From Tritrichomonas musculus (Eukaryota; Parabasalia; Tritrichomonadida; Tritrichomonadidae): a stretch of 64,000 bases of DNA. Below are positions 1 through 54,653 of the stretch, piece by piece (positions within the stretch are counted from its first letter, which is position 1; each line of letters opens with the position of its first letter). Where the stretch lies: the NCBI GenBank assembly GCA_039105265.1, contig JAPFFF010000018.1:2294001-2358000 (forward strand), written 5' to 3'. Below the pieces are notes generated by a model, which saw only the letters and a list, made by a program, of their open reading frames with translations, was not told where the DNA came from and searched no databases. A program made the translations under genes and the position numbers.

Positions 1-462
1 AACTGAGGTAGCTGGTTTTTCGGATATTTTAACTGTTTGAACAGACCAATTTTGCTGTTCACACGAAGTAATTGAAACATAGCCATCCGATGCAGCAGTA
101 GCAAAACAGAGGGCAATTGGTGCAAATGCAAGCGAATTTATTGGCGATTTATGTTGATGAAATGTCATTGCTTGCTTAAATTCTGTTAATTTGATTCTTT
201 GATATAAATAAGTTCGTCCAGCTTCATCAGCAAATGCAAAAATTGCCCCATTGTCAAAAGATGCGAATGAAATAGAAGTTGCACGTCGACAGCATGGTTG
301 AGTTTCGTAAATTGAGTGGAATTTTCGATTCTCGTCAGCTTCAAAAATTTTAACTGAGCCATCTATATAAAGAAATGCAAGTAATGTTCCTTCAGGATTG
401 AAGCAGCATTCAGCTACATTCTCAATGTTTGGAACTTGTATATTATCTGGTAGATCACCCAT
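1..462 (-). CDS. SEC13: Sec13-like WD40 repeat protein, 3' part cut by window edge
   Basis: The first 154 codons of a minus-strand gene are present and the reading frame is open to base 1, so the C-terminus lies outside the window. The product reads as successive beta-propeller blades. Two segments, around residues 31-41 (FLYIDGSVKIFE) and 105-130 (HKSPINSLAFAP, then ASDGYVS), match the order and spacing of the first Sec13 blades, where a 'VNSVQWAP...SSDGKVSV' pattern is expected. Sec13 is a scaffold of the COPII outer coat and the nuclear pore Y-complex. The ATG at 460-462 is the first one after an in-frame stop upstream. Another small WD40 scaffold such as Seh1 cannot be excluded from the N-terminal half alone. 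Confidence 0.7.
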   Translation of the reverse strand, partial: MGDLPDNIQVPNIENVAECCFNPEGTLLAFLYIDGSVKIFEADENRKFHSIYETQPCCRRATSISFASFDNGAIFAFADEAGRTYLYQRIKLTEFKQAMTFHQHKSPINSLAFAPIALCFATAASDGYVSITSCEQQNWSVQTVKISEKPATSV

Positions 463-1127
463 TTGTAAACTTTTTGATAAATCGAAAATATGGTTACTTT
501 TTTTTATTCAACTTTTTGAAAAAATGAAAACACTTATAAAATTTTCAAAATTTATTTGTGATCTGATTTATTGCAATGCTTTCCATGTTTAGGACCATAA
601 ATACAATCAAAACATCAAATTTTAATTAAGAATAACATTTTGTACCAAATATTTAATCAAAACTCCTTTGCTATTTTCCAGTATTGGGGCTTAATCCATG
701 TACAATTATATCAATCAATGAATGAAAAAATAGAATCTCTTTTTTTTGCTCATTAATATTTTCATAATTTATTTCTCAATATCAGAATTATGAGATAAAA
801 TTATTTTTTGCATCTAAATTACGTAAATAACTTATCAAATCTTAAGTAATTGTCACAAACAGCCTTAATCTATCACTTTATTTTGTTGCTGTAAAAAAAA
901 TATAATTAGAAAACTTTTTCTTCTCCTATTTTTGTGGATGAAATTAGTTTTTTAATGCTTTTATCCATTTAATAAAGAAAATAAACCAAAAATTTTACCA
1001 GAAAATTTGAATGATTCGTATTTTTTATGAATTAATTTTTTAAAGAATATGTACGTTTAGAATTATCAATTCAAATAAGAATTTGAGGAAAAAGAATTAA
1101 TTATTTTAAATACAGAAGAGACTTCTG
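463..1127. other. Divergent intergenic region, 665 bp
   Basis: This AT-rich spacer separates the Sec13-like gene (minus) from the DCX/P-loop gene (plus) and must hold both promoters. No RNA gene, clear repeat or conserved ORF is visible. Confidence 0.6.
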
Positions 1128-3467
1128 ATGAGGAAATATTATACTCATCAAAAAGACGAGCAAGGCCAAAATTCGAATGGAACAGTATTTAATGCATTTA
1201 TCTATTTAACGTTCAAAGATGATCCATCTTTACCTCCGAAAAAGATTAAGTATCCTCCTTCTTTTCAAAGTTTAATGAGACTTGCCAAAAACCTTTTTTC
1301 AGATATCGTTGATGTTCAATCTTTATTTACTAAAAACGGTAAACGAATTAAATATATCGATGATGTTATTCCAGGTGACACAATTTATGTATCACCTGCA
1401 TTAGAAAATGGCGATGGTGAAGATGAAATTAAAGTCAAAAAAAGGAATAAACCACAAAAAAAAGATCAAGATAATGTTATTCAACAACAAGGCTCATACA
1501 ATAAACTATTTGCTGGCCCTGGCAGTGAAGAGGAAAGAGTTAAAGTAACTGTCATTGGAAATCCTCATCTTTCCCTTTCATCGCAAACTCGAGATAGAAG
1601 TCAAATACCCAAATTTAAAAAATACAACGAAAATTTAAACAAAAATAACGAAAATGATGATGCCAATTTACAAAATCAATTTCAATCATCAAATTCTAAT
1701 AAAAAGAGTCTTTTCAAGAAAAGATCAATTGATGGTGTATCTGAAGATTATGTAAGTAGTGAAACTTCTGAAAGCGATGCCAATAAAAATGATTTAAAAT
1801 ATAAAAGTAGTTCAGAATCCTTTAGTTCAAAGTCAAAAAAGAAAAATGCGCAAAATCAAGAATCTGATCAACAAAGTTCAAAAAAGAATTTGAAACTCAA
1901 AAGAAATACCAGTGCCTGGTCAAATGCCACTGAAGAAGAAAGAATGAAATTAACAAAAATTACTTCGAATTTATCTGAAATTTTCTTACATGTACTTCAT
2001 GAAGAGACTCTTGCTCAAAAAGTTCCAGAAAGCCTTTATTCTATATATAACGATCCAAATGAATGGAAAGAAGATAATCAAAAGGAAGTTCCAATTGATT
2101 TTTATACTCAACTTGTAGACAATTCAAAAGACCTTGATTTTTTCTGGATCAAAAAAGGTCTAGAACTTTTTGATAACGACGATATTCAAAGATCAGAAAT
2201 ATACGGATATGATGAAATAATATCAGTTATTCGTCAAATCTTCTCAACACATCGAATTCCATTTTTTGAGTCGACTGAAATTGATTTCAAAAGCAAAAAA
2301 TCAAGAACGAACAAAAATACAGAACAAAATGACAAAATTACATTTTATTCAGGTGCCTGTTATCATTTTAATCATGCCATTGTTGGTCCTAGGCAATCAG
2401 GCAAGTCCACTTTCCTTTCATTTTTAGCTCATGAGTTACTTTTCGAACTTGTGGCCACTGAATCTATCAAAAAATACTTTATTGTCAATTTTGACCTATC
2501 GAAATGCATCATGCATGTTCATAATCCAGAACTTTTCTTCCACGACGTTGTTGACATTACGATGCGTTCATTACAATGGAATTGTCCGTGTTACACTCCA
2601 TACATTCACAGCTTAACGTCTTTTTTTAAGTCGATCACTGATGATTCAAACGAAATCGATCCCGATTCATTCACCAGGCAGCCTCCATTTGTTCCTCCCG
2701 CCTTCAAATTGAACCCGGACTTTCAGTATGTTGCTTCCTCGTTCCAATCAATTGCAAATCAAATGACAACTCTCTGGAACAATGACGAAAAATATATGGA
2801 ATGGATGCTGCGCGTCCTTCTCTTTCCAGAATCGATAGCCAAAGCTGCCGGCATCAAGCAAATGATTTACTTTGTCGATGACATCGAGCTCACTGACGTT
2901 GAACTTGAATCATCAAATGGAAATCATTTTAAAGCATTCAACGGCTGCATTTTTTTGGCAGACCTTTTCAAATTGGTTTTGTCAAATGGAAATTTCTTCG
3001 TCAGTTGTCAGAATCAAGACGACTTCTACAAATTTATTGTGCCAATTTCGGATGATCTCGGACCATCCGAATTTTTGAAAAAGATTAAAATGCTAAGTAC
3101 ACTCAATTTGATCAACATTTCAAAACAAAATCAAAATCAAGAAGAAGAAACTGAAAATTTATATTTAGATAAAGTTATTTCGGTCTTCATTGATGATGAT
3201 GATGATGATGAAATACCTATAAATTTCTCTGTAAATCACACCGGCGGAATTCCGATTTTTGTTTTCCTTTGGAAGGAAATCAATCAACTTTTCGATGAAT
3301 TCGAGCAATGCGAAGAAGGTTCAGAAGAATTTCACGAACTTTATTTGACAATCATTAATCAAGCTTCAGAATTGTTAATCCGATTGTTCTTGACTCAGGA
3401 TGGTGAAAATATCCCTGAATCTTTGGATATTAGAGATGTTAAGAGATCTTCATCTTCAAAATCATGA
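1128..3467 (+). CDS. Protein with DCX/ubiquitin-like N-terminus and P-loop NTPase region
   Basis: The 779-residue product has three parts. Residues about 20-90 resemble a doublecortin-like beta-grasp domain (FQSLMRLAKNLF, then LFTKNGKRIKYIDDVIPGD and IYVS), the class of fold used for microtubule or adaptor binding. Residues about 95-270 are low-complexity and rich in Ser, Lys, Asn and Gln. Residues about 280-760 form a globular region with a Walker A motif GPRQSGKST at 420-428 and a Walker B-like run QMIYFVDDIEL near 578-588 containing two Asp. It therefore looks like an AAA/STAND-type NTPase fused to a DCX-like module. The precise family is not recognised. A run of Asp codons (GAT repeats) lies near 3190. 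The ATG at 1128 is the first in frame. Confidence 0.75.
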   Translation: MRKYYTHQKDEQGQNSNGTVFNAFIYLTFKDDPSLPPKKIKYPPSFQSLMRLAKNLFSDIVDVQSLFTKNGKRIKYIDDVIPGDTIYVSPALENGDGEDEIKVKKRNKPQKKDQDNVIQQQGSYNKLFAGPGSEEERVKVTVIGNPHLSLSSQTRDRSQIPKFKKYNENLNKNNENDDANLQNQFQSSNSNKKSLFKKRSIDGVSEDYVSSETSESDANKNDLKYKSSSESFSSKSKKKNAQNQESDQQSSKKNLKLKRNTSAWSNATEEERMKLTKITSNLSEIFLHVLHEETLAQKVPESLYSIYNDPNEWKEDNQKEVPIDFYTQLVDNSKDLDFFWIKKGLELFDNDDIQRSEIYGYDEIISVIRQIFSTHRIPFFESTEIDFKSKKSRTNKNTEQNDKITFYSGACYHFNHAIVGPRQSGKSTFLSFLAHELLFELVATESIKKYFIVNFDLSKCIMHVHNPELFFHDVVDITMRSLQWNCPCYTPYIHSLTSFFKSITDDSNEIDPDSFTRQPPFVPPAFKLNPDFQYVASSFQSIANQMTTLWNNDEKYMEWMLRVLLFPESIAKAAGIKQMIYFVDDIELTDVELESSNGNHFKAFNGCIFLADLFKLVLSNGNFFVSCQNQDDFYKFIVPISDDLGPSEFLKKIKMLSTLNLINISKQNQNQEEETENLYLDKVISVFIDDDDDDEIPINFSVNHTGGIPIFVFLWKEINQLFDEFEQCEEGSEEFHELYLTIINQASELLIRLFLTQDGENIPESLDIRDVKRSSSSKS

Positions 3468-3838
3468 AAAAAAAACTTATTTTTTATTTTATTTTACTTA
3501 TTTTACTTAAAACTGTTATTACAAATTGTGTCGTCTTTTTATTTCGTTTGTTAAACAGCAACAACTTTAAATCATCTGTGATCAAAATCATTTATTTTTT
3601 TTAATATCTGAAATGAATTCAACTTCAATGAAGTGCATTTAGAGTTATAATTGAATCCATTTAATTTGATTCATCTATCAATATCGATTTCATTGCTCTC
3701 ATTGGTATTTCACTAGATGAATTGGTTTTAGTTTAAGTCATAATATTTTTCAATTTGGAATTCACTTCATCAATTCAAGTTGTTCATTTATTGATGATGA
3801 AATCATTTGCAAATTATTAAAAACTGTCAATTATAGAG

Positions 3839-6124: not shown

Positions 6125-7163
6125 ATATTGACTACTTTATTTTGAATTGTTTGATGTACAGTTGTTTTAACAACAAAATACGACTTTTTAATGTTTTTAT
6201 TTATTTGTTTATTAAGGAAAGCTATTATTATTTTATTATGTTTTACTGATTCCAAAAAGTATTTGCGTTTTTAATAAAATATACTTCATAAATTTTCTAT
6301 TTTGCTTATTTTAATTTTTAATTTTTACCATTTTAAATATATACATAATGTTTGTCATATTAAAAAGAACTTTCACGTTGATTGTGATAATAAATTAACT
6401 AAATGATACTTATAATAAAATGACCTTCTTTTTTTTATTTTAAATTTTATGTTTTTAAGTTGTCTTTATGATATAATCTTATATTTTATTCATTTCCTCA
6501 TCAAATATCAAAAATGAATACCTGAATATCCTTAGAAATAATAATAAGTTCTCTTAAATTCATAATACAATATTCCAATATATTTTAATTTATTAGAAAA
6601 TATTTTTAAATATTTATTAGAATGATTTATAATAAAAAAATAGATAATTTGCAAAGATTTAACGAAAAGTGAAGTCAATATAAATTCAGAATTGTAAATA
6701 AAAACGCATTTTCAAATTGAATACTGCACAATTTTTTAAGTCAAAATATCAAAAATAATAAAATTTTTAATTATACTTTTATTGAAATGCTTTTTTTGTT
6801 CAAAAATTAATAACTTATTAGATTTATAATTTTTAACGTATGATAAAATAAACTACACAATTATGGCTTTTGAGAGAATAAATCAGTTTGAATTTAGAAA
6901 TGTAATTTAATGAAAATATCATTCAATTGCTAATATGATTAATTTTTTATATATAAACTTGTTAGAATATGAATTTAAATGTTCAAAAATACTTTTGTAA
7001 AAAAAGTATTTAATTTTTAATGGCTATATTACATAATCTAGTTTAAATAGATGGACGTTAAAAAATATTAACGGCTGGATTTTTGAATGCAATACCGATT
7101 AAACTTGGTCAATTTTTACACCCAAAATAAATTAAGTTAACACTGAATTAAAATTGATGATAA
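6125..7163. other. Intergenic AT-rich region, about 1 kb
   Basis: No coding, RNA or repeat structure can be supported here. It is strongly AT-rich with short homopolymers and lies between two plus-strand genes. Confidence 0.6.
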
Positions 7164-8981
7164 ATGAATTATGATCTACAGGGAAAGCAAAAGAATTCTT
7201 TACAAAATAAAGCAAATGCAAAGATTTTAAAACTTCAAAAAGCACTTGATGCAGAAAAGCAGAAGGTCTACACACTCCAAGATAACGAAAGTAGACTTCA
7301 AAGAAAGATCGACGATCTAGAGTCCGCAATGCGCCTATTACAACAATCAGCAAATGATGCAAAAGAAGATGCCAAAAGAGCTATGGATGAACTTAGTATT
7401 GCTAACCGTCAGCTTGAAGTTCAACCTCCAACTGCAGACGATCTCCTTCCACCTTCATGTTATCGTTGCGATGAATTTGATCCAGCTTTATCATCAGCTA
7501 TTAGTCGTATTGCTAATAACACAGCTCTTCAACCAGTTTCTAAAATCAAGAACTGCTTTTTAACAATTAGGAAATATTACCAGAAACTTCTTGCAGAACG
7601 TGATGAAGCACTTGATCAGGCATTTTCAGAGAATCAAACTCTTTCTGCAGCTTTTAATCAATTCATTCAAGATGCTTCAATCGCTCTAACAGGAAATGTT
7701 TGCACTCTTCAAGACTTTTTCTCCAATGATGCTGGACAAAAAATTGTTGAACAGATACAAAAGCTCCGATCACAACTCGGTGATCTTAAACATGAACAGG
7801 ATATTCAACGTGGTTTTGCAAGTGCATTTACAAACAGCTTCGCTGAATTCATTACAGAACCAAATGATCCAGTTCGTGCTCTTAATGAAGTTAAAGAACG
7901 AATCAACGCTCAACAAGATCAGATTGCAGCACGAAGCAAGAAAATACATTCTCTCAAATCCCAAATTAAGAATCACGAGAGCATTCTCAAGACTAAAACT
8001 GCAGACCATGAACGTGAAAAGGAAGAACTCGACTTCCAAAGACAAGAACTAGAATCACGCGTTAATAATCTTAATAAGACTGTTAGCGAATTGCGCCAGC
8101 ATAATGAAAATCTTACAAATGAGCTCGAAGTTGCTACTCGAACTCTTGAAGAAACACAAATGACTCTTTCTCAAGAACATAGTGAACATAACACCTCAAT
8201 TCTTGAGGAAGCTGCCTCAAAAGAAGCTAAACTTAAGAATGAAGTTAAAAAGCGTACACAAGAAAACAAGCAACTTCGACAACAAATCAACGATAATTCC
8301 AAAGCACTTGATAACCTTAGGCAACAACTACAAGCTTCAAAGAATGAGAGAAGACGTGCTGATGACGATATGGAGAATCTTAAGAGAGAGATCGAAGAAA
8401 TTCAGAGAGATGCTGCAAGTCGCCTTGAAGCTGAAAAACGAAATATTGTTTCATCTTATGATGCAGCAATAAATGAACTTAAGGAACAGTGCAATAAACA
8501 AAGGAAAGATGTTGAAAGAATGGCCATGGACGCTTCCCAATATGACCTCAAGTATGCGTCAGCTCAACAAGAAATAAATGGCTTAAGGAAAGATAAAAGA
8601 AAATTAGAAAAAGAAGTTGAAGCAATGAAAGGACAGCTTGAAAGAGAACGTAAGCTTATGGAGTCTAAGATTAGAGCAGAAAAGATTCAAACTGAAAGCA
8701 ATTACTTTGCTAGATTAGAAGAACAGAAAGCTCGTTCCGAGGCTGAAAAGCGGAAGATTTTCACACTCGGTGCAGAAGCATTCAGAAACTTCTTTAATCC
8801 AAATGAACAAATTGATGAAAGATCATTCAAATTAGTTCTTGATAGAGCAAGGAATACAATTACACAACTTCAGAAATCTGATAATGACATCAGAAGACTT
8901 CTTGGAGTTGGAGAAAGTCAGACTACCCTTGATGCTGTTGCGCAAATGGTCATGAGCAAATCTCAATCAAAGCCTTTTTAA
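7164..8981 (+). CDS. Coiled-coil protein
   Basis: The 605-residue protein is mostly coiled coil (about residues 10-85 and 225-540), with heptad-like Leu spacing and a very high Glu/Lys/Gln/Arg content. A globular interruption at about 88-225 contains PPSCYRCDEFDP and FLTIRKYYQKLLAERDEAL. The C-terminal 60 residues (FRNFFNPNEQIDERSFKLV, then LLGVGESQTTLDAVAQMVM) look structured again. Parabasalids encode many such proteins in the cytoskeleton, basal bodies and flagella, but no named family is recognised. The start at 7164 is preceded by an out-of-frame ATG at 7157 that terminates after five codons. The stop is followed by AAT (TTTTTAAATT), compatible with a TAAA-type polyadenylation signal overlapping the stop. 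Confidence 0.85.
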   Translation: MNYDLQGKQKNSLQNKANAKILKLQKALDAEKQKVYTLQDNESRLQRKIDDLESAMRLLQQSANDAKEDAKRAMDELSIANRQLEVQPPTADDLLPPSCYRCDEFDPALSSAISRIANNTALQPVSKIKNCFLTIRKYYQKLLAERDEALDQAFSENQTLSAAFNQFIQDASIALTGNVCTLQDFFSNDAGQKIVEQIQKLRSQLGDLKHEQDIQRGFASAFTNSFAEFITEPNDPVRALNEVKERINAQQDQIAARSKKIHSLKSQIKNHESILKTKTADHEREKEELDFQRQELESRVNNLNKTVSELRQHNENLTNELEVATRTLEETQMTLSQEHSEHNTSILEEAASKEAKLKNEVKKRTQENKQLRQQINDNSKALDNLRQQLQASKNERRRADDDMENLKREIEEIQRDAASRLEAEKRNIVSSYDAAINELKEQCNKQRKDVERMAMDASQYDLKYASAQQEINGLRKDKRKLEKEVEAMKGQLERERKLMESKIRAEKIQTESNYFARLEEQKARSEAEKRKIFTLGAEAFRNFFNPNEQIDERSFKLVLDRARNTITQLQKSDNDIRRLLGVGESQTTLDAVAQMVMSKSQSKPF

Positions 8982-49028: not shown

Positions 49029-50357
49029 TTATTTATTCATCAATTGGCAATAAGGGACTCCAACATAATCGCCACCGTTGGATTTCATTTCACTTTTGAA
49101 GTTCTTACGTTGGATTGACTTGTTCCTTTGGAATTCAACAGTGCTTCTTTTTTCTTTTAACTTTTTCTTTTCAGTGTTGTTTGATTCAATGTTTTTTAAA
49201 TCAACATTATTCGTTTTTGCTCTGCATCTTTCACGAATTAGATAAGCGCATTCATAAGGTCTGTTGTGTTTAAGATAGCTATAGTAAACTCTTCCCTCAT
49301 AACCTTCTTTGCTCCATGGAGTATTTTTGTCTGCAATACGCGCAGTTGAGGCATGCAAAGATTCATTGGCATTAGTATTTAATGTCGGATCGACCTTATC
49401 AAAGATGCTCTGTGTATCAACCAAGAAGTCATGGAAATCTTCTCTAAGTTTCTTGTCATTCATTCCATTTTTCCATTCAAAGCACTTAACTTCTCCATGA
49501 TTACAAAAGCCATGCTTTCCAAGAACCTGATTTTCAGTATTAAGCCATTTTGCTTTCTTTGTTTCTGCATCTATTTTTTTGTCATACAATAAATTAATGA
49601 ACCAATCAGTAACATGCGTCTTTAAGCCATAAAACTTTTTTTTGTATTTAATTAATGTGAAAAACATCAATGCAGAAATACTAAATTCAATTAAGTTTCG
49701 AGCTTTCCTGTATGCTCCATTAATAAGTCGATCCCAATAGTATGGAAACCATTTTTTCCCATGGTTAGGATCTATTTTTTCTGATGCATCTGGAGCCTGA
49801 TAAGCCCATATATTTCTTGTTTTATTGTCCCTGTCATGAACGAATTTGGCAACTTTTTTACTATCAATTTGGGCCTAATTTTGTCGGATCATTTCACTCT
49901 CCATCATGTTGCTTGATCCAACAAAATCGCCATTTTTTCTTTCCTTTGTGATAACGCTGCCAGCAACAATCTTCCCAGTTTTGCAATTCATGAATGCACC
50001 ATTACACTGAGAAGAGTTGCGGCGGTGGTCGAATGCGCCATCACATGATAAAAATGATCCTTCAGTCATTTTCATTGATTCTTCTTGAATTGACTCCTTT
50101 GACAACTGAATTATGATAGAATTAACCTTTTGCTGGTGACGATAAAAGGTTGATTTTGAAGGCGATTCAACGCCTTGAGCTGCTAAAATACCTTTTGCCT
50201 TTTTATATGTAGAACCGTTCTCGTAACATGAGATAACCATCATAGTTGGATCAGCACGTGGATTAACGACTTCATTTTCATCTTTGTTCCATCTTTTTTT
50301 AGCTGCCATCTGAGCTTTTAGTCTCCTTTGCTTGCTTTTTGGTACACCACGAAACAT
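49029..50357 (-). pseudogene. Mutator-like (DDE) transposase interrupted by one in-frame TAG
   Basis: Two open segments, 49875-50357 (160 codons) and 49029-49874, lie in the same minus-strand frame and are separated only by the TAG at 49875-49877. The first holds a basic N-terminus, an HTH-like segment (GILAAQGVESPSKSTFYRHQQKV) and SCDGAFDHRRNSSQCNGAF...TGKIV. That matches the first catalytic Asp block ('xxDGxWxxRgxxSxxG...TGkv') of Mutator-like transposases. The second holds FCNHGEVKCFEWKNGM and NTNANESLHASTARIADKN, corresponding to the 'N.NESlNs..W' block with the catalytic Glu. The codon before TAG is AAT and the downstream context keeps full coding quality, so this is either a recent nonsense change (e.g. 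CAG to TAG) or readthrough. The promoter side has TTCATTTTAATG, a host-type initiator. Confidence 0.75.
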
Positions 50358-50890
50358 TAAAATGAAGCGAAAATGGAAAGAAAAATTTTCAAATATGCAT
50401 TCAATTTTTTCATTGAATTTTTTTCAATTTATATTTGTTTTATAAAGCATTCAAAATATAATTTTTTTTGTATTAATATTTGTTTTGTAGGTATTCAAAA
50501 AATGTGACTTTTATAGGGCTAGCACGAAATAATTAGCAAATCATTTGATAAAAAGATCTATTCCGAATTAGCTTCGATCAAAAAAATTATTATTGTGTGC
50601 ATTTTTTCCAAAAAAAAAATTAATTTTTCCATAAATAAAATTTTACCGCAGAAATTGTGATCAATTTTTCACAAAAAAAATTTTTTGCGAAAACGGTTTT
50701 TGGTCTAAAGTATTAACCTGTATTAATTTGAAAAAAATTTTGAGCAAAAACAATTAAATCATGTGAAAAAAAATTTAAAAATAAAAAAAAATATTGAATA
50801 AAAAAATAAAAGAAAAAGAAAATTTTAATTAATTTTGATAAAAATAATTATGATTATAATTTTCACTTGTCCTTTAAAGAGTTTTTATAT

Positions 50891-52240
50891 TTATTTTGTG
50901 ACAAAACTTATGACATTTTCGATAGATGCATCACATAATTGATCATTTAATTCACTATATTGAATATCTTTGAGAATTGGTATGATATCATATAATAATA
51001 AATTTGTTCTTAGCTCACATTCATGATGAGAATTTATAGATAAGCATATTAAAGTTTGTAAAATAAAAAGTAGATTCACTATATCTTCAAAAATAAAATC
51101 ATTTAAATGGTCACAAATTATTTGAAATAATTGAGAATCGAAAATTATTTGAGTAGATAAATTAATTTTTGGATTCAACAAATATGTCAAACACTTGATT
51201 GATATAGATTTTGTTTTTGCTGGATATTTATGATAATTTTGGATAATTTTTGTCCATAATAAATTAGAAATAGGGTTTTCATGAAGAATGTTGACTCTGA
51301 TCATAAATATTTGATAAATTGAATTTATCTTTTGATAATTGCTTGATTCTAGAATTAACCAATAGTAATTAATGTTTAATTTATGCAAAATATAATAAAT
51401 TTTCTTGTTGTTGATTTCTCCCAACCTTTTTAATATTATTAATATTAAATCAATCATTTCTTCTGAATAATAATTTGAATTCGACATTTTCATGAATTTA
51501 TCTATGATTATATCAGGAATCAAAGGTATGAATTCAACAGCATTTCTATATATTTGATATAAATATTTTAAAAATTGAATTTGTTTTTCATCAAAAATAT
51601 CAACTTTAAATCCTGTAACAATTTGTAAAATAAAATTGTTGATTTCTAACATATTATATGCATATGTCATTTGGTTTTTGGACAAAAACATAATTAATTT
51701 CAATTTTGTTGATATTTCAAATATTTCATTATTATGTAAACAAAATAAAATATATTCAGAATATTGAACAGAACTTTTGGATAATCTGATAAATTCACAA
51801 ATGCAATCAACAATCAAGGAATTTGCTTGCAAATTATTATTTTCAAATATAAACAACTTAATGGCACTTTTTTCGAGGCTAGTCAAATTGTTAAAATCAA
51901 TTAGGATATTTGATTGTAATAGATTGAATATGAAATTAATAACTATCATTTTGATGCAATTATCATGAAGTATATTGAAATCAATTAGTTTCTCCAAAAA
52001 AAGAGTAAGTATTTCAGAAAATGCTGTATTATTTTTTTCTTCATTTGGTGTTGTTATTATTAATTTCATAAGAGAAACAATTGAACTTTCAAAGACATCC
52101 CTGATGCCAAGATCAAGACTGTTGAGTGTTAATGCAATTTGTTCTTTAATTAACTGGGTATGGTCAATATTTGTAATGAAATCAATTTCGCTTGTAAACA
52201 TATCGGTTTGTCTATGTTTAGCATCAAATGGTTTATACAT
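50891..52240 (-). CDS. Armadillo-like helical repeat protein in the TIR element
   Basis: The 449-residue protein consists throughout of short amphipathic helices rich in Leu, Ile, Asn and Lys (for example SLMKLIITTPNEEKNNTAFSEILTLFLEKL and TKSISIKCLTYLLNPKINLS). This is the periodicity of ARM/HEAT-like solenoids such as importin-alpha relatives. The N-terminus (MYKPFDAKHRQTDMF) is basic and could mimic an importin-binding segment. No catalytic motif is seen. The ATG at 52238-52240 is preceded on its strand by ATCATTTTTTATC, a host-type initiator. Its divergent neighbour, about 225 bp from ATG to ATG, is the USP gene. Codon usage is more AT-rich than the host genes around 26-28 kb. Confidence 0.7.
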   Translation of the reverse strand: MYKPFDAKHRQTDMFTSEIDFITNIDHTQLIKEQIALTLNSLDLGIRDVFESSIVSLMKLIITTPNEEKNNTAFSEILTLFLEKLIDFNILHDNCIKMIVINFIFNLLQSNILIDFNNLTSLEKSAIKLFIFENNNLQANSLIVDCICEFIRLSKSSVQYSEYILFCLHNNEIFEISTKLKLIMFLSKNQMTYAYNMLEINNFILQIVTGFKVDIFDEKQIQFLKYLYQIYRNAVEFIPLIPDIIIDKFMKMSNSNYYSEEMIDLILIILKRLGEINNKKIYYILHKLNINYYWLILESSNYQKINSIYQIFMIRVNILHENPISNLLWTKIIQNYHKYPAKTKSISIKCLTYLLNPKINLSTQIIFDSQLFQIICDHLNDFIFEDIVNLLFILQTLICLSINSHHECELRTNLLLYDIIPILKDIQYSELNDQLCDASIENVISFVTK

Positions 52241-52451
52241 GATAAAAAATGATTATTTTCAGTTAACTTCTAAATTGAATTGTCGGAAATTACTTTTAAG
52301 TTTTTTGTTATGCATTGAAATTTCAATGAAACTGTGACAGCTAAAATTTTTTTAAAATTTTCCAAAATTTTTTAAAAATTTTTTTAAAAATTTTGCCAAA
52401 ATTTTGTTCAATGAATTGTTTTTTATTCTTATTCTTATTTTATTTTTCACC

Positions 52452-52464
52452 TCATTTTTTTAAA
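52452..52464 (+). promoter_or_regulatory. Initiator-like core promoter of the USP gene
   Basis: TCATTTTTTTAAA directly precedes the ATG at 52465, giving a 5' UTR of about 11 nt. It supports 52465 rather than the upstream ATG at 52411 as the start. Confidence 0.5.
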
Positions 52465-54239
52465 ATGAATTTCCCTATAAGATCTACTCCTGTACGTCTA
52501 TGTAACATTAATAACGTGTGCTCCATTAATTGCATTATTCAAGTCCTCTTTAACGATGCCGATTGTTGGCAAATGATTAACCAATTAAACGATAATGATA
52601 TCCTAAAGCAGCTTGCAGTTCGCTATTCAACAATTACCAATGGTAATAGGTCAATCAATATGGAAGATTTATATGAAACTTTCCAACCAGTTATCGACAC
52701 AAAAAATGAAGAAAAGCTAATGCATCCTGATGAAAATATTAGAGGAATCCAAATTGATCCTTTGCATTTGTTCCAAAATAATCTTAGCAGATACAATTTT
52801 CTTAATGAATATTTTAAGAATTCAGAGGAAGAAACAAATTTCAGTCAAATAATTTCAATATCAGATGATTCAGTTGACGTTCAAGTAGGTTTAGATTGTA
52901 GGATCTATCAAAATCTTAATGAATTTCCATATGCTCCTAAATGCTTATGTATTAATGTCATAAGAGTGTTGCCAAATGCACTAGTATCTTCAAGAAATAA
53001 TGCCAATACAAATGCGTTGTATATAAGTAAGAAACCTATTACACCAAATAGGTACATTCATTATGCGCCATTTGGTTCAGATATTGATGAATATTATAAA
53101 TTATATTCAATTATCATTCATCGTAATAATGAAATTAATCGAGGTCATTTCGAAGTGCTACTGTTTATAAATGATAAATTTTATCATTGTAATGATAATC
53201 ATGTCACACCATACCTCAAAAATGAAATATCAGACTCGACGTTAGAAAAAAAAAATATATTTTTTTCTATCAAAAATTGGAAAGAAAACCTGAAGATTTC
53301 GAAAATCAAACACAAATATCACCTCCCAGAAAAAGAAAATTCGCTGAAATAGAGAATTCTTTTTCTTCAAATGAATCAATATCGCAAAACAGTAGTATTA
53401 TTAACAGTTTTCCAAATAGAAACGGAAATGAATTATTTCCAGTTACAGATTTGAATACAAAAACTATACCGCTATTTATCCCTTATGACATTCAAGCAGA
53501 TGGGAACAGTATTCCCGAGGAAATACATATAGATGATGAATCTCTAAATATGTTTAAATTGGTTGAAAAAACTCAAAACAATGCAATCAAATATGATATA
53601 CATAAAAATTTCAAATACTTAAATGGTTTTCTTGATATAGCTCCTGGTGAATCACCAGCAAATGAATACTCGACATCAAAACCAATTTATTTATATACTC
53701 AAAAAATACTTGAGGTTTTTACAGAGATTTTATGCAACCTTATTTATAAATCAGATTCCACATCAAATGGTGAAATTAATGCAAATTTAACAGCTAACCA
53801 ATTGAATATAGATTTTGAATCTCACTTAAATTTACAGGTAAAAGAAGTTGGTGAACAGTTATACAATCTATTTAAAGATTATGAAAATCGGAATTTAAAA
53901 ATTGTTAAAGAAAAAATTGAGGGAGAAATTGTTGAAATAATTAAAGATATGATTGCATATCATTTTGATGAGGAAGACAAAATAATACCTGAACATAAAA
54001 AAAATAACTCAAATAAACTTTCAGATATTGATTTTCCAGATGAGAATTATGATTGGCAATCAAGGATTGATGAGTATGGTATTAAGCGAATACTTGATGA
54101 AATGAAAAAAAAGAACTATAAAAATGAAAATGAAAAATTAACAGCCACCAGAGATAAGGTCAGAGAAAAATTATGGAATGATTTTTTAGCCAAAAAAAGT
54201 GAAATCAAAAGCAAAAGAAAATTATATTTAAATATCTAA
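52465..54239 (+). CDS. Ubiquitin-specific protease (C19) with C-terminal tail reached by a -1 shift
   Basis: From the ATG at 52465 the frame encodes a compact USP domain. The Cys box is CNINNVCSINCIIQVLFN (C of NVC is the catalytic Cys; the canonical form is NxGNTCYxNSxLQ). The His box YKLYSIIIHRNNEINRGHFEVLLF...CNDNHVTPY has the catalytic His in GHF and a following Asn/Asp. This frame ends at 53352. The USP signature that normally follows, 'aYiLfYe', is found in the -1 frame as KKYIFFYQKLE. That frame stays open to 54239 and adds about 310 residues with an NLS-like PPRKRK and a helical, charged end. The switch point is an A10 run at 53246-53255 that reads A AAA AAT in the zero frame. Either programmed -1 frameshifting or a one-base indel joins the parts. 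The hydrophobic extension from 52411 is probably untranslated. Confidence 0.75.
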
Positions 54240-54653
54240 TAATATTTTTTATAACTGCAATTTATATTAATTTTCTTGAAAATAAAAAGAAAATTGTTGC
54301 AACAATATATTTAGAAATAATTAAATTCCATATTACAAATTATTTTTATCGATAGAATTTTATATTTGAGGGAAATTGATTTCAATTTTATTCATTTTGC
54401 TTGTACTTTTTTCTCAAGAGATAGGACTAAATTCGTTATATCGAAAACCGTTTTCGAACAATGCCATAATAAATTCGTTATATTGAAAACCGTTTTCGCT
54501 AAAAAAATATTTCTATCAAAATTGCTAATAATTTCTGCGGAAAAATTTTTGTTTTTGAAATTTTTTTATTATTTTTGTCAAAATTGATTAGAAAAATCAA
54601 AAAATTTTTATTTTCTCAAGTAAAATTCCAAATTATTTCATGCTAGCCCTATA

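Follow-up and report, generated by a model that had tools for sequence, protein, structure and literature searches.

An inverted-repeat element of Tritrichomonas musculus is very probably a deletion derivative of a transposon with a ubiquitin-specific protease-transposase fusion

Why should a mobile element carry a deubiquitinase and no transposase? The question arises from a 64,000-nucleotide stretch of the genome of Tritrichomonas musculus, a protist of the mouse gut (C18:2294001-2358000; hereafter, we refer to this whole stretch as "the window"). A first-pass annotation of the window, made from the sequence alone, described an element with terminal inverted repeats (TIRs) that enclosed two divergent genes "instead of a transposase": a ubiquitin-specific protease (USP, peptidase C19) with Cys and His boxes, and an armadillo-like (ARM-like) protein. 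We find that this feature is very probably a non-autonomous, internally deleted copy of a recently mobile 7.4-kb transposon of the IS630-Tc1-mariner type, in which the USP and the transposase form a single protein. The sequence-based part of the argument comprises the arms, a TA duplication (in one copy), the fused frame, the catalytic motifs, the deletion and the recurrence of the fusion.

The central evidence is a full-length copy, L053 (C1:10651429-10658828, 7.4 kb), the only one with the transposase part among the copies of this family studied; the genome searched comprises 193,395,805 bases in 746 contigs. In this copy, a 977-amino-acid (aa) protein has the USP at its N-terminus; its C-terminal end is, in one frame, a transposase of the IS630-Tc1-mariner type (DD35E), and the second gene, of 449 aa, sits between the same arms, divergent to the fusion gene. 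The window copy corresponds to positions 1-3713 plus 6965-7400 of the L053 element at 99.5-99.6% identity, with the joint in a common AAAATT; about 3.26 kb, including the transposase part, is absent. Compared with L053, one T is also missing near 53255, which shifts the frame at the end of the USP. The features of the window copy are as follows (positions in the window; ORF, open reading frame).

50512-50513, no strand: left-hand TA of the target-site duplication (TA here in 20/20 copies; empty site of another copy, L048)
50514-50710, plus strand: left terminal inverted arm, starting TAGGGCTAGC (arm comparison, genome matches)
50891-52240, minus strand: second element gene, a complete ORF of 449 aa, predicted to be all-helical (near-identical in L053)
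52411-53352, plus strand: N-terminal part of the USP-transposase gene, a 313-aa ORF with Cys37 (52519-52521), His246 and Asp262 (L053 protein numbering); frame shifted from about 53255
53241-54230, plus strand: the same gene, resumed in a different frame (middle region, aa 278-607) and pseudogenic in this copy (comparison with L053)
54218-54223, no strand: junction of the 3.26-kb internal deletion, at a 6-nt AAAATT microhomology; the lost stretch contained the DDE transposase part
54455-54651, minus strand: right terminal inverted arm, ending GCTAGCCCTA (arm comparison, genome matches)
54652-54653, no strand: right-hand TA of the target-site duplication (TA at this end too in 20/20 copies; L048 empty site)

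Judged by this comparison, the window copy is a non-autonomous derivative by internal deletion and not an element with a USP in place of a transposase: in the full-length copy, the transposase itself begins with the USP as its N-terminal domain, and the window copy lost the rest. The arms and the pair of divergent genes that the first-pass annotation saw are confirmed. Its mobility would depend on transposase made elsewhere, as the first-pass annotation had supposed, and both genes belong to the element, as it had also proposed. Immediately to its left (49029-50357, minus strand) lies a broken transposase-like gene, a 160-aa part of which matches Pfam Mutator weakly (1.4e-4, below cut-off).

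Both halves of the fusion are identifiable. The Pfam UCH match in P0002 scores 32.1 bits against a curated cut-off of 23.9, the catalytic residues of the L053 protein follow the USP order (Cys37, His246, Asp262), and the fold agrees with that of USP/peptidase C19. Another class of deubiquitinase was considered and rejected, as Pfam gives UCH, rather than the OTU or tegument family, at the N-termini of P0002, P0007, P0009 and P0010. On the transposase side, DDE_3 lies above the gathering cut-off in P0002, P0004, P0005 and P0007-P0010, and the D-D-35-E spacing is present in 7/7 aligned proteins. The NCBIfam IS630 model reaches 2.9e-22 but, at 79.5 bits, falls below its cut-off of 100; it spans aa 625-889 of the fusion protein, a stretch in which helices are predicted. 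The transposase fold is taken from a Foldseek match to Mos1, since the VIA-align rows cover only aa 24-292. Weak Pfam rows below cut-off (ORC_WH_C, Mug135_C) were disregarded. The TA duplication, the DDE_3/IS630-type transposase and the terminal inverted repeats together agree with IS630-Tc1-mariner membership.

The arms themselves behave as those of a TIR element, which upholds that part of the first-pass annotation. They occur at about 20 places in the genome at about 99% identity. The left arm has at least 21 strong matches, of which 20 span all 199 nt and one is split; for the right arm there are at least 20 (17 spanning all 199 nt, two shortened and one split), plus a lone 86% match; these counts are lower bounds, as the best 40 of 68 (left) and of 69 (right) candidates were scored. 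Weaker arm relatives are found at about 71-78% identity. We studied 20 two-armed copies (the window copy, L039-L056 and a copy on C29), all of which start TATAGGGCTAGC and finish GCTAGCCCTATA. Outside this set are L057 (C333), a left end only, and L058, a lone right arm; L057 shares its left flank and inner structure with the C29 copy and is probably an assembly duplicate. When the 600-bp flanks of the 20 copies were compared, no mutual similarity was detected at E 1e-8.

The target site can be read at L048, whose flanks sit inside a genomic repeat. With 40 of 138 candidates scored, the joined flanks match at least 40 places in which the alignment runs across the joint. Two repeat members preserve the empty site, CCTTTATAGC, and comparison with the filled site (CCTTTA-TATAGGG...CCCTATA-GC) gives a 2-bp TA duplication, which sets the element proper at 50514-54651. 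The L048 target is a high-copy repeat, with at least 40 places at 98-99% identity over 199 bp (e.g., C371:8038-8236, L072, and C51:982752-982950, L073).

The fusion is not confined to L053. A database search with the transposase region alone returned 7 proteins. Beside P0003, both UCH and DDE_3 exceed their cut-offs in P0007 (47% transposase identity), P0009 (43%) and P0010 (32%), and P0004 aligns as a complete fusion, with 58% identity in the USP part. Cys, His and Asp are all kept in P0004, P0007 and P0010, while P0005 is without the N-terminus and P0009 begins after the Cys box. In the T. musculus genome, at least 11 unbroken frames join a USP to a transposase: L053 and ten from a search with P0010 (59 matches from the best 38 of 1299 candidates scored). 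The ten, which belong to several families, are defined by match coordinates, as USP and transposase matches that lie on one strand, share an open-frame length and are uninterrupted by stops; by arithmetic on those coordinates, the offsets between the two pieces are multiples of three. They are:

C4:5130602-5135392: unbroken fusion frame, 1622 aa
C17:2148072-2152016: unbroken fusion frame, 1338 aa
C1:8640552-8644316: unbroken fusion frame, 1297 aa
C33 (two) and C52 (one): unbroken fusion frames, 1234 aa each
C10:3920964-3924503: unbroken fusion frame, 1215 aa
C1:2577464: unbroken fusion frame, 1058 aa
C8:5700953 and C73:236918: unbroken fusion frames, 1040 aa each

Broken fusions also exist (e.g., on C35, C25 and C49 and at C4:2423224), C3:3418260-3422331 is an interrupted relative, and many more frames match over the transposase part only, as judged from match coordinates. 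At the sequence level, the USP-transposase fusion is thus one that recurs in divergent element families. Separately, at least 138 places in the genome have a strong UCH domain (PF00443), many of them in frames longer than 2000 aa; 138 of 271 candidates were scored in that search, in which the matches listed were all strong and element USPs would not show.

Most other copies of the family are reduced. The transposase part is present in 1/20 copies and the USP part in 2/20; the whole 449-aa ORF of the second gene is present in 2/20, at least its 3' part in 19/20, and none of it in L054. A deletion joint at L053 positions 964/6658 is common to nine copies and one at 513/6662 to four others, indicating that the derivatives multiplied after the deletions. 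The first-pass annotation had regarded arms without the two genes as speaking against its proposal. Such arms are indeed the rule (18/20 two-armed copies have no USP match), but the cause is internal deletion and not arms unrelated to the genes. The 28-kb C29 copy was considered as a giant autonomous element and rejected, as its length comes from large insertions into a short derivative. That copy (L059-L061, C29:750414-778763) holds about 25 kb of other DNA, with an ORF carrying DDE_1 (PF03184) and a pair of ORFs, 826 aa each and in opposite orientation, for which no Pfam family was found.

The second gene is a real element gene, and to that extent the earlier description stands; the "ARM" label is a guess. 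Its protein (P0001) has no Pfam family over cut-off and no Pfam repeat, a PDB search gave no convincing match, and the structural model, from a two-sequence input, is all-helical and poor (pLDDT 42). The suggestion that an ARM protein aids nuclear entry finds no support here. The database holds one near-identical, shorter relative (P0006). Among nine related loci read, four (L062, L063, L065, L066) carry a stretch 40-43% identical to the last ~97 residues of the second gene, at a distance of 0.2-1.1 kb from related arms; the gene is therefore part of two or more element families. The related arm families (L062-L070, about 71-75% identity), several with a second-gene remnant, contain no detectable USP or transposase part.

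Several observations weigh against the reading that we favour. The TA duplication is read directly in one copy only (the other copies carry TA at the same places), and no empty site was found for L041, whose joined flanks, in the same query, yielded none of the 40 matches listed. The transposase part survives in a single copy of the family, which leaves present-day activity conjectural. At E <= 0.01, Pfam does not call UCH in P0004, though its Cys, His and Asp are kept by alignment. Finally, P0008 (1058 aa) has a USP region with Pro for Cys and the His lost, and the DDE motif kept, so not all relatives depend on the protease.

This last protein bears on the first of three rival explanations, in which the transposon is the same fused one and its USP is no longer an enzyme but a module for binding ubiquitin or contacting proteins. 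The USP part is also less conserved than the transposase part (70/244 versus 158/361 identical residues between P0003 and P0007), which likewise favours this explanation. However, Cys is kept in 4/5 proteins that cover it (P0003, P0004, P0007, P0010) and His in 5/6, and we regard this explanation as unlikely. Far less probable is that the USP cleaves its own fusion protein, releasing transposase and protease from a polyprotein, as USPs normally require a ubiquitin-like substrate. The stretch directly after the USP (aa 309-391), with very low model confidence, would suit such processing, and viral deubiquitinases are often polyprotein processors, according to the discussion in a study of Helitrons (PMC9741609). 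We give almost no credence to the third, a TIR element with a captured host USP and host ARM cargo served by an unrelated transposase: the window alone, with two genes between arms and no transposase domain, and the abundance of host-type USP matches (138 scored) fit it, but the USP is in frame with the transposase in L053 and divergent families keep the same domain order. A Pack-type gene-capture element was likewise rejected, as the USP is not separate from the transposase in L053 or in the frames of the P0010 search.

For the deletion derivative and its parent, we therefore envisage a full element of two divergent genes, one encoding the all-helical protein and the other a single polypeptide of USP, middle region and DD35E transposase. 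The fusion protein would bind the arms, excise the element and paste it into TA. The USP, carried in cis on the DNA-bound transposase, may strip ubiquitin from that transposase; alternatively, its targets at the element ends may be chromatin or repair proteins. Stabilization of a transposase by deubiquitination, as first proposed, is a fair guess, now in cis. That the USP shields the transposase from the proteasome has a little short of an even chance; somewhat less likely is that it acts locally, on chromatin or repair factors that carry ubiquitin.

Deubiquitinase-bearing transposons, a C19 plus Transposase_11 protein and DD35E spacing are already known. A single sentence in Bao et al. 2010 (PMC2836005) records that XP_001314237.1 of T. 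vaginalis combines Transposase_11 (pfam01609) with Peptidase C19. It thus resembles our fusion in joining a USP-type peptidase to a transposase in one parabasalid protein, but it is of the pfam01609 superfamily and, by that description, a single protein, whereas here we find DDE_3/IS630-Tc1-mariner, arms, a TA duplication and many relatives. Ginger1, as summarized in the same article, also fuses a ubiquitin/SUMO-type cysteine protease to a DDE transposase; its transposase is Gypsy-integrase-like and its protease C-terminal and of other families (OTU or Ulp1, for which the authors suggest a link with DNA repair), unlike the N-terminal USP here. Helitrons and Helentrons with VTD or OTU domains likewise have a transposon protein with a deubiquitinase domain, and the VTD authors propose that transposition proteins are shielded from the proteasome (PMC9741609, as excerpted); these are rolling-circle RepHel proteins with other protease classes, whereas the present protein joins a USP to the DDE transposase of a TIR element. 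Tvmar1 of T. vaginalis, as outlined in its report (PMC4021607), is a trichomonad Tc1/mariner-type element with autonomous and broken copies, but it is 1,304 bp long, D,D34D and described with a transposase ORF only, compared with 7.4 kb, DD35E, a fused USP and a second gene; "ubiquitin" does not appear in that article's text as available. Traveler, a vertebrate DD35E Tc1/mariner, shares the spacing and differs in host range and architecture, a distinction drawn from its abstract (PMC7093834). The string "transpos" is absent from the available text of the published T. musculus genome paper (PMC11978803), and none of the open-licence PMC papers listed by our searches describes, by its title or abstract beginning, the fusion of a USP with a Tc1/mariner-type transposase.

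The occurrence of ubiquitin/SUMO proteases in unrelated transposons (Helitrons, Ginger1 and Mutator-like elements, MULEs, as reported in parts of PMC9741609 and PMC2836005) suggests that ubiquitin bears on transposition. The present locus shows how the appearance of a "USP plus ARM cargo" can originate, namely when an internal deletion removes part of a gene that encodes a fused transposase. With a USP on a well-studied class of cut-and-paste transposases, and many unbroken frames in one genome, an old guess about ubiquitin becomes testable. It is conceivable, though we would not yet bet on it, that the IS630-Tc1-mariner-type transposons of trichomonads include a large, old group that carries a USP in cis as a counter-defence, escaping host ubiquitin marking or erasing marks at DNA ends, with the all-helical gene as a partner.
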